Of a DNA stretch of 21,021 bases, positions 16,777 through 20,799 are shown in pieces. Source of the stretch: a virus; IMG/VR virus record IMGVR_UViG_3300037485_000411, positions 1 to 21,021 of that record; one strand, 5' to 3'. A program made the position numbers and the translations under genes. The notes under the pieces are model-generated. The model ran no database searches, had not been told where the DNA came from, and worked only from the letters and a program-made list of their open reading frames with translations. Numbering within the stretch: the first letter of the stretch is position 1; each line of letters begins with the position of its first letter.

Positions 16777-17374
16777 TTTTATTGAACGACATTCTTACTT
16801 AATTGTAGTTGGTATTTTATTCCTTTTTTTATTATTCGGTTGCTCGGCAAGGAACGTAAATAAATCAGATAGTAAAATAGATAGCGTTGCAACTACTAAA
16901 ATAGAAGTAGCAGTAAAAGAATTAGAAACTATAAAAGAAAGTACTAAAATAGATAGCCTTTCAGAAAAGAAAAGGCAAACTATTGTTAATGTTTTTACAG
17001 ATGAATTAGAATTAGAGCCGATTGATGAAAAAGAAATAAGCAGTTTCACAGATGAAAACGGTAAAACAAAGACTTTTAAAAACGTTCGTATAAGAACTAA
17101 TAAAAGAAAAGATAAGTCTATTATTGAAGAATCAGAAACAGTACGTAAAATAGAGCAAAAAGACGTTGAAATAGCAACTTTAAAAGATAGTGTTTCAAGT
17201 TTACACGATGAAATAGCAGTTAATAAAGAAATCATTAAAAAGTTGAGTGAAAAGGAGCAGTTTAACTGGAGTACTTTTGTGTTATCATTCTGGTATTTAT
17301 GGCTATTAATATTGATTGCTTTATATTTAGCATACAGATATTACAAAGGCTATCTTAAGTTTCCTATGCTTTAA
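16760..17374 (+). CDS. Unimolecular spanin candidate (lipoprotein plus C-terminal membrane anchor)
   Basis: A 204-residue protein with a membrane-targeting element at both ends. The N-terminus has a short positively charged part, a hydrophobic core (14-26) and the lipobox-like LFGC with Cys28. The region 29-168 is a Lys/Glu/Asp/Ser-rich periplasmic stretch with predicted coiled coil. Residues about 172-192 (FVLSFWYLWLLILIALYLAY) form a transmembrane helix, and a basic tail follows. An outer-membrane lipid anchor at the N-terminus plus an inner-membrane helix at the C-terminus is the defining layout of u-spanins such as T1 gp11, which fuse the two membranes at the end of lysis. The location after endolysin supports this. 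No acidic lipoprotein export signal follows the Cys, consistent with an inward-facing protein. Confidence 0.6.
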   Translation: MKTNLNFIERHSYLIVVGILFLFLLFGCSARNVNKSDSKIDSVATTKIEVAVKELETIKESTKIDSLSEKKRQTIVNVFTDELELEPIDEKEISSFTDENGKTKTFKNVRIRTNKRKDKSIIEESETVRKIEQKDVEIATLKDSVSSLHDEIAVNKEIIKKLSEKEQFNWSTFVLSFWYLWLLILIALYLAYRYYKGYLKFPML

Positions 17375-19971: not shown

Positions 19972-20124
19972 ATGAACCAATCATTCCTAGAATTTTGCAA
20001 ATCCACAAGAGGCTATCAATTTTACAACAAGACAACACAACAGCAGGTATTTAAATATGAACTTTATTGGGCTGGATATACTTTATCAAAATGTTGGGAT
20101 AAATTTGATATTGTAAGGATTTAA
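19972..20124 (+). CDS. Small protein (50 aa) sharing a motif with the last gene of the window
   Basis: An ATG two bases after the methyltransferase stop opens 50 codons, ending TAA at 20122-20124. The product starts MNQSFLEFCKSTRGYQFYNK, continues TTQQQVFKYELYWAGY and ends KCWDKFDIVRI. The first 26 residues align without gaps to residues 19-40 of the protein starting at 20879 (see findings), so both may carry the same small module. It looks complete, with no upstream in-frame domain. Function unknown. Confidence 0.65.
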   Translation: MNQSFLEFCKSTRGYQFYNKTTQQQVFKYELYWAGYTLSKCWDKFDIVRI

Positions 20125-20136
20125 TTTATATATTTG
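20104..20136 (+). promoter_or_regulatory. Bacteroidota-type promoter (TTTG - N21 - TATATTTG)
   Basis: TTTG at 20104-20107 and TATATTTG at 20129-20136 are separated by 21 bases. The -33 part lies inside the end of the preceding small gene. A start about 5-7 bases after the box puts the 5' end of the RNA at about 20141-20143, exactly where the first stem of the kissing-loop candidate begins. Confidence 0.75.
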
Positions 20137-20142
20137 CACAAA

Positions 20143-20223
20143 CATAACGGTCAGGTTATGAAACAAAAACTTTATTTAGTCCTGACTATGCTCGTACTGA
20201 CCTACGAGATTTTAGTCAGGATT
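20143..20223 (+). ncRNA. Structured 5' leader with predicted kissing loops
   Basis: Hairpin 1 is CATAAC (20143-20148) / GTTATG (20155-20160), loop GGTCAG. Hairpin 2 is an outer stem of 8 perfect pairs CCTGACTA (20181-20188) / TAGTCAGG (20213-20220), extendable to 11 pairs with one G-U, and an inner stem CTCGT (20191-20195) / ACGAG (20204-20208) with loop ACTGACCT. The whole loop 1 is complementary to CTGACC (20197-20202) of loop 2, six perfect pairs. GTCAGG (20150-20155) can instead pair with CCTGAC (20181-20186), so alternative folds exist. The ATG at 20158-20160 lies in stem 1. Confidence 0.6.
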
Positions 20224-20244
20224 TTAAATTTTATAACAATATGA
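20158..20244 (+). CDS. Hydrophobic 28-residue peptide inside the structured RNA
   Basis: An ATG at 20158 opens 28 codons, TGA at 20242-20244, overlapping the next ATG by four bases (ATGA at 20241). The product starts MKQKLYLVLTMLVLTYEILV and ends RILNFITI: one transmembrane helix flanked by Lys. The start codon is inside stem 1 of the kissing-loop structure, so translation may depend on RNA refolding. The codons include CTG twice, CTC, ACC and GTC, which are unusual in this AT-rich genome and coincide with the paired bases. It could be a leader peptide, a small toxin-like membrane peptide or a superinfection factor. Confidence 0.5.
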   Translation: MKQKLYLVLTMLVLTYEILVRILNFITI

Positions 20245-20333
20245 GTGCATCAAATACACTTTGGCAACAAACAAGAGAAGAAGAAGAATTTAACCAATTA
20301 AACTTAGAAGATTATGAATATTTATCAAATTGA
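20241..20333 (+). CDS. Very small acidic protein (30 aa) before Gp157
   Basis: An ATG at 20241 overlaps the previous TGA. It has 30 codons and a TGA at 20331-20333, overlapping the Gp157 start by 20 bases. The product starts MSASNTLWQQTREEEEFNQL and ends NLEDYEYLSN. It is acidic and probably helical. Overlap on both sides suggests coupling, and the MSAS start is like that of the protein at 18127. A role other than passing ribosomes to the Gp157 gene is not visible. Confidence 0.5.
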   Translation: MSASNTLWQQTREEEEFNQLNLEDYEYLSN

Positions 20334-20799
20334 ACAGGAATACCTAGTATTGTCAAATGACATAATAGAAGCTGGTGGAGAAATTACTCCAGAATTAGAA
20401 ACTGCATTAGCAATTAATAAGGAGCAGTTACAAAATAAGGGCATAAACTACGGTTATGTGATAAAATCTTTAGAAAATGATATAACAGCTATCGAAGAAG
20501 AAATTAAGCGTTTAAATGCTCTTAAATCGAGCCGAACAAAAACAACTGAATTACTTAAATCTACGATTAAACAAGCTATGCAGTTATACGGAATCGAAGA
20601 ACTGAAAACACCAACACTAAAAATCAATTTTAGAAAGTCAGAATCGATTGAGGTTGATGATAGTGTTTTAGATGTAAATTATTTTAATCATAAAGTAGTA
20701 TCAACACCTAATAAAACTAGAATTAAAGAAGATATAAAAAGTGGAAAAGAAGTTGTTGGAGCAGTTTTAAATGTTAATTTTAATTTGCAGATTAAATAA
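20314..20799 (+). CDS. Gp157-family phage protein
   Basis: A 161-residue protein. Residues 1-100 are helical and coiled-coil-like (QIEQEYLVLSNDIIEAGGEI, then YVIKSLENDITAIEEEIKRL, LLKSTIKQAMQLYGIEELKT). The C-terminal part has KTPTLKINFRKSESIEVDD, VNYFNHKVVSTPNKTRIKED and KSGKEVVGAVL. This is the characteristic arrangement of the siphovirus Gp157 family, found in early regions near recombination and single-strand-binding genes; in Streptococcus phage it was linked to phage resistance when introduced in hosts. The biochemical role is not settled. It lies downstream of the kissing-loop promoter and is probably its main cistron. Confidence 0.85.
   Translation: MNIYQIEQEYLVLSNDIIEAGGEITPELETALAINKEQLQNKGINYGYVIKSLENDITAIEEEIKRLNALKSSRTKTTELLKSTIKQAMQLYGIEELKTPTLKINFRKSESIEVDDSVLDVNYFNHKVVSTPNKTRIKEDIKSGKEVVGAVLNVNFNLQIK

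Follow-up and report, generated by a model that had tools for sequence, protein, structure and literature searches.

What two hairpins with complementary loops do between a phage promoter and its first genes is the question raised by a short stretch near the end of the 21,021-nucleotide viral sequence analysed here (positions 1 to 21,021 of IMG/VR record IMGVR_UViG_3300037485_000411; hereafter, the window). A first-pass annotation had proposed that an early phage transcript opens with a kissing-loop RNA. Direct reading confirms the two hairpins, the six-base complementarity of their loops and the promoter, positions included (Table 1). The inner stem of the second hairpin (H2) is present but has 6 bp, not five, and the outer stem, for which at least eight perfect pairs had been claimed, has 11, one of them G-U. 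Transcription had been placed on the first base of stem 1; the start does fall beside that stem, but we predict it at about 20141, two bases upstream, so that the first hairpin (H1) would essentially form the 5' end of the transcript. A -7 box position of -12 to -5, with its consensus, is given for F. psychrophilum in the cited part of PMC9723704.

Table 1. Parts of the element in the window and the genes that follow it
Feature	Position	Strand	Details
Bacteroidota-type promoter (predicted)	20104..20136	+	TTTG 20104-20107; sigma-A -7 box TATATTTG 20129-20136
Hairpin H1	20143..20160	+	CATAAC 20143-20148; loop GGTCAG (segment A) 20149-20154; GTTATG 20155-20160
AU-rich spacer, H1 to H2	20161..20177	+	read from sequence
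Hairpin H2	20178..20223	+	outer stem, internal loop, inner stem, loop CTGACC
H2 outer stem	20178-20188 / 20213-20223	+	AGTCCTGACTA / TAGTCAGGATT; 11 pairs, one G-U
H2 inner stem	20191-20196 / 20203-20208	+	CTCGTA / TACGAG; 6 bp
H2 loop (segment A')	20197-20202	+	CTGACC; read from sequence
Loop-loop pairing (predicted)	20149-20154 with 20197-20202	+	6 bp; both six-base loops fully complementary
U-rich tail after H2	20221..20233	+	ATTTTAAATTTTA; U-run looks weak
28-codon open frame	20158..20244	+	MKQKLYLVLTMLVLTYEILVRILNFITI; begins in 3' arm of H1, spans H2
Small gene, 30 aa, first after element	20241..20333	+	overlaps 28-codon frame by ATGA
Gp157 family gene	20314..20799	+	Sipho_Gp157, Pfam E 2.5e-28

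The 81-nt stretch has a predicted minimum free energy of -28 kcal/mol (z = -5.60), and 0 of 200 shuffles folded as low. Between the promoter and the first start codon lie a hairpin and then a U-run, as in an attenuator, with a U-run that looks weak in the window; a terminator pattern scan flagged the inner hairpin (20191-20208) with the tail ATTTTAGTCA, and not H2 as a whole. The 28-codon frame may encode a leader peptide, perhaps a membrane peptide, and had no relative at an E-value better than 3.0 among the first 45 loci. Reading by eye, we also saw segment A directly before an ATG frame of about 20–30 codons running through H2 in L125, L120, L059, L084, L109 and the window; these frames, sometimes in frame with the next gene, are possible leader peptides.

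We scanned for two hairpins with complementary loops in the window and in relatives that had been retrieved through Gp157 homology (88 non-redundant loci, 883 kb), with three shuffled sets as controls. At a kissing score of at least 60, and with homologous contigs included in the counts, there were 18 matches on the Gp157-gene strand, 0 on the opposite strand and 0.0 in the shuffles (none at a score of 60 in three sets of 883 kb, both strands); when promoter and ATG terms were added, the same threshold gave 42, 0 and 0.0, respectively. The window itself scored 63.5, or 72.5 with the added terms. Searches by sequence similarity gave a different picture. In a distant blastn search of a phage collection, none of the best 20 of 84 records covers the element, the best match being the region of a Gam-like gene; when a 221-base region was compared by BLAST with the first 45 loci, no match apart from the window itself improved on E 0.16; a pattern search for one of the loop pairs recovered just two contigs, both already in the set; and a scan of genome contigs yielded one locus.

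The first-pass annotation had tied the leader to Gp157 genes, and this tie does not hold. Two close Gp157 relatives, L001 (73%) and L050 (74%), lack an element within 700 nt upstream of the Gp157 gene, and the contig of L001 carries elements before NUMOD4 genes instead. The 30-aa gene is weakly similar to L001 2934-3017 (E 0.023, among the first 45 loci), a locus where the kissing element is absent; the element therefore seems to be gained or lost independently of these genes. A leader specific to Gp157 was rejected, the genes downstream being diverse and unrelated: Gp157, small genes, two checked NUMOD4 + HNH_3 proteins, a fusion of helicase and DNA methylase, a protein whose N-terminal domain is BT4734-like, an AAA-like protein that falls short of the Pfam cut-off, and further proteins that match no family. 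Genes for NUMOD4-type endonucleases often have their own promoter and kissing element, as if gene and element travelled together (L149 at 12715 and 593, L151 at 16620 and 18721, and L156).

The kissing hairpin belongs to a wider plan, of which it is the most frequent form: as read from these sequences, a predicted Bacteroidota promoter is followed by segment A, an AU-rich spacer, a terminator-like hairpin, a U-run and the first gene. Segment A often lies in a hairpin loop, and the loop of H2 carries its complement; in a second form, an open 5' segment without a hairpin pairs over about 8–12 bases with the H2 loop. A wide scan required a promoter, a leader segment A, a terminator-like hairpin bearing A' in its loop, and an ATG; over 11,907 promoter-like sites it gave 114 matches at a score of at least 34 (6.5 in shuffles) and 72 at a score of 36 (1.5 in shuffles), counts that include homologous contigs and overlapping promoter matches or stretches. 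At 31 or above, 101 matches were distinct, and several of the matches resemble false ones in coding sequence. The matches at 34 or above fall into 49 clusters, in which A has a median length of 7 nt (6 to 13), the spacer from A to H2 a median of 26 nt and the distance from H2 to the ATG a median of 17 nt. A stem surrounds A in 34 of the 49, the other 15 being below the cut-off for an H1 stem, and an ATG follows A within 8 nt in 12, the window among them. The alternative pairing of 20150-20155 with 20181-20186, in which the first-pass annotation had seen a switch between loop 1 and the 5' outer arm, does exist in the window but was found in only one of the 49 clusters, the window's own, and we have dropped it.

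A U-run follows H2 in 24 of the 31 best distinct kissing elements, which were picked without a U-run criterion, as against 18 of 72 shuffled matches, which were taken at a lower score; the other seven elements have no U-run by the test used. Among 14 phage contigs that are complete or almost so, 13 have a match at 34 or above, and 10 have two or more, counts in which a few matches look false (for example, L142 16379, L147 5798, L157 3439); the fourteenth, G005, has matches at 32.8 (coding-looking) and 31.2. One phage (G010) carries three elements with different loop pairs, and a 12.6-kb stretch (L113) carries four (5899, 8675, 9670 and 12385). By eye, we judged false AT-rich or coding-looking matches such as those in L091 (minus 1049), L114, L045 (minus 8647), L142 (16379) and L147 (5798).

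The kissing and wide scans both select for pairing, and the complementarity they report counts only against shuffles; the non-circular evidence comes from a pairing-blind test and from rows of a gene-family comparison that the scan had missed. Relatives share the layout with other loops: TGGTAG/CTACCA, GGCCAT/ATGGCC, TGTGGAAGA/TCTTCCACA, GTAGGAG/CTCCTAC, GTCGTCG/CGACGAC and others. Two relatives identical at 111 of 129 aligned columns carry TGTGGAAGA/TCTTCCACA and TGTAGGAGA/TCTCCTACA, respectively, and two elements of a single phage (G011), identical at 65 of 105 columns, carry GTGGAAG/CTTCCAC and GTGGACG/CGTCCAC. The gene-family comparison of upstream regions had 192 rows, and its family counts are from among the matches listed. 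Upstream of MEDITW/MENIKF genes, all seven regions listed kiss, with six different loop pairs, all of them perfect, and a constant H1 stem. Upstream of NUMOD4 genes, 6 of the 13 regions listed kiss by the scan, four (L109, L115, L122 and L144) have the open form and three (L018, L111 and L127) have neither; in the six kissing elements, which had been selected by the kissing scan, the loops are perfect over 7 bp, with up to four pair types per position. Upstream of the MIINKHY gene family, 8 of the 16 regions listed kiss by the scan and three (L022, L023 and L026) have no element directly upstream; in the five rows that the scan missed (L112, L114, L115, L122 and L144, the last being the contig of L117), reading and alignment revealed GTGAGAG paired with CTCTCAC.

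In the pairing-blind test, sites were picked by a strict promoter, a terminator-like hairpin with a U-run, and an ATG, pairing being ignored. This gave 230 sites in 170 clusters, of which 134 remained after limits on loop and stem. Strong pairing between leader and loop, weighted for G+C, was found in 27 of the 134, as against 0.79 expected from non-cognate partners and 1 when direct identity replaced complementarity. At a weaker cut-off, the figures were 43, 3.93 and 6, respectively; the 91 clusters that fell below it include many that resemble hairpins of coding sequence. An unweighted first version, counting pairings of at least 7 bases, was far less clear (0.224 cognate against 0.110 non-cognate), because AT-rich matches dominate it, and the G+C weighting and the limits on loop and stem were brought in after that result had been seen. 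None of 14 sites paired at the weaker cut-off in 256 kb of a Chitinophagaceae MAG of similar G+C, our whole-genome survey being of part of this one MAG, whereas 25 of 59 sites did so in 14 phage contigs, and 20 at the stronger cut-off; some sites are counted twice here, and the counts include homologous contigs and overlapping promoter matches or stretches. A wider scan of the MAG gave a single match, a tRNA-Arg gene.

MAFFT did not align the structure of diverse elements, and we therefore limited the structure counts to two groups that align easily; the MEDITW and NUMOD4 alignments were shifted in the loops and were left out. In the first group, all seven members of which had been found by the kissing scan itself, stems and loop pairing comprise standard pairs in 161 of 161 cells, and eight pairs changed on both sides, as compared with 4.5 in shuffles, only 1 of 500 of which was as high. 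In the second, 192 of 192 cells are standard pairs and five pairs changed on both sides, as compared with 3.4; 34 of 500 shuffles were as high, and the group is therefore weak by this measure, although 0 of 500 shuffles attained its covariation score. Further pair types are unremarkable in both groups (80 and 90 of 500 shuffles). The loop pairing is nearly invariant within each group, the GTGAGAG loop being constant in 8 of 8 members of the second, and varies between subfamilies and in the MEDITW/MENIKF and NUMOD4 gene-family sets. The stems contain G-U pairs, fitting RNA of this strand. The stems of the proposed kissing-loop RNA have evolutionary support from these two groups, and its loop complementarity from the gene-family comparison and the pairing-blind test.

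The element also occurs in cultured phages. Tenacibaculum phage Gundel_1 has two, and the ATG after each is an annotated gene start, at 16904 for a replication protein and at 34015 for an antirepressor; one element occurs in Flavobacterium phage 11b, again followed by an annotated start (33738). Each of these two phages has one doubtful match besides (31.5 and 32.2, respectively). In Polaribacter phage P12002L, an element precedes the replication protein (annotated start 34375); here the scan misassigned the stem arms and picked an ATG further downstream, and the hairpin resembling a terminator was identified by eye. The match accepted in Croceibacter phage P2559S (NC_018276, L181) scores only 31.2; a TATATTTG box, a U-run and hairpin H1 were the grounds for accepting it, two higher matches (33.0 and 35.5) being rejected. 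For gp48 of this phage, the annotated start (a TTG codon at 33955) falls within the element; the in-frame ATG that directly follows the element, at 34000, is a likelier start. Matches in Flavobacterium phage 6H and in LS06 are doubtful, and the stretches from Cellulophaga phi38:1 and phi12:1, crAss001 and Nonlabens P12024L contain no convincing element. The best named Gp157 match among those listed (48.8%) is in Rhodobacteraceae phage LS06-2018-MD05 (OP947161, L127), a sequence with some Bacteroidota-type TAnnTTTG-like boxes, whose host label may be wrong. The element is not peculiar to one window and, judging by its predicted promoters, stands at the start of many Bacteroidota-phage messages.

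As the first-pass annotation had suspected, no described RNA family in Rfam 15 fits. It gave 0 matches at gathering score in the window and 0 in 15 loci (139,188 bases), and Rfam classes were accordingly rejected; a permissive search of the window, L005 and L029 gave five matches, all below gathering score, those overlapping elements being NsiR1 (L005, E 0.7) and mir-554 (window, E 3.3). The RNAI and RNAII copy-control RNAs of plasmid ColE1 kiss, and Rop reads their shape. They resemble the elements here in having fully complementary loops of 6–7 bases whose sequence is free to change, but are two separate antisense RNAs, whereas here both loops lie on one transcript. The kissing leader is apparently an undescribed control of phage genes: among the papers listed on kissing loops, Bacteroidetes phages, antitermination, terminators and structured RNAs, no title describes it.

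In place and shape, the closest known system is the put RNA of phage HK022, and in plan the ANTAR leaders and the HMP-PP aptamer embedded in a terminator. The putRNAs are about 70 nt long with two stem-loops, putL lying just downstream of the early promoter PL (PMC9378689). Two stem-loops thus directly follow phage promoters, at two places in the HK022 genome, and two directly follow the promoter in the window. However, putL and putR are similar in sequence, whereas the elements here are nearly sequence-free, and the second hairpin here is terminator-like, unlike that of put as far as the cited part goes; the words 'kissing' and 'pseudoknot' appear 0 times in the main text (PMC9378689). In HK022, put binds the zinc-binding domain of the polymerase beta' subunit, and distant terminators are read through. 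ANTAR (EutV) leaders likewise consist of a pair of hairpins, each with a six-base loop, and the second of them overlaps a terminator ahead of the gene; position 1 of their loops is A and position 4 is G (excerpts of PMC3369931); GGUCAG and CUGACC lack this A1/G4 pattern, and they are complementary to each other, unlike the ANTAR loops as described there. The HMP-PP (thiS) riboswitch combines a functional intrinsic terminator tip with a possible pseudoknot, but has a conserved loop and serves thiamin-related genes (cited section of PMC6478431), whereas here the loops differ between relatives and the phage genes are unrelated.

What, then, does the element do? A terminator-like hairpin between promoter and gene is the mark of an attenuator, and here the RNA begins with a segment complementary to the hairpin loop; the pairing therefore most likely tunes the hairpin. 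Our preferred reading, to which we give a probability of about 0.58, is that the element would be a cis-acting leader of phage operons, a promoter-proximal transcription attenuator governed by loop pairing. RNA polymerase would start a few bases upstream of H1, which would display segment A; after the AU-rich spacer the terminator-like H2 would form with A' in its loop, and A and A' would pair as H2 emerges from the polymerase. The loop pairing would then set whether transcription stops at the U-run or reads through into the first gene, and its effect could be in either direction. Both the pairing of A with A' in the cell and the termination of transcription by H2 are inferred from sequence. 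In the hairpin form, A/A' and H2 could coexist as a kissing complex. For the 12-bp open form of L109, nested folding of a leader whose 3' arm is incomplete favours A/A' at the expense of H2, and the two may therefore compete.

A shape-reading factor, whether RNA polymerase or a phage or host protein, seems likely because only the shape is kept while the sequence is free. A bolder proposal, which we put forward tentatively, is that of a sequence-free RNA code, in which each operon would have its own orthogonal loop pair and a single shape-reading factor (polymerase, phage protein or host protein) would act on all of them. Such a code would be a counterpart of nut and put achieved by base pairing alone, and might be passed between genes, homing endonuclease genes included.

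The alternative that survives best, though we consider it rather unlikely, is that the two-hairpin leader is a put-like processive antiterminator that binds the elongating polymerase and, without any protein, lets it pass H2 and the terminators beyond. Two stem-loops right after promoters, more than once per phage, are found in HK022 as well (cited part of PMC9378689); yet H2 is itself terminator-like and adjoins the start codon, the H1 stem is below the cut-off in 15 of the 49 clusters, and the elements share little sequence, whereas putL and putR are similar in the part cited.

H1 and H2 could instead control access of the ribosome to the ATG or protect the 5' end. The short distance from H2 to the ATG, the closeness of the ATG to A in 12 of 49 clusters and the adjacency of the predicted 5' end to H1 in the window all suit this, but the enrichment of U-runs after H2 would be left unexplained, and we regard such a role in translation or stability as unlikely.

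Plasmid copy control and phage P4 provide models for pairing in trans, in which a terminated leader would be a small RNA that pairs with leaders of the same operon elsewhere, for autoregulation or immunity. The use of different loops by copies within one phage would be consistent with this, as would the leaders of MEDITW/MENIKF genes, in which varying loop pairs go with a constant H1 stem. However, loops are constant in other subfamilies (GTGAGAG, 8 of 8), and A and A' are about 50 nt apart on one transcript, so that cis pairing should win; trans kissing is, we believe, quite unlikely. A DNA-level operator, with palindromes arising from inverted copies of a GTCAG protein site, would fit the three copies of GTCAGG within 71 bases of the window but is very improbable, given that the loops of relatives are unrelated in sequence yet complementary, that the G-U pairs of the stems fit RNA of one strand, and that the extra copy in the outer arm is peculiar to the window (1 of 49).

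To our knowledge, little is known of gene timing in Bacteroidota phages. A leader RNA of the proposed kind, repeated at several promoters of a phage and carried by cultured phages too, would be a general control point, and a clean natural example of an element that conserves mainly the base pairing of one loop with another. It might also serve as a sequence-programmable switch in Bacteroidota hosts, the function of which would be testable by loop swaps.
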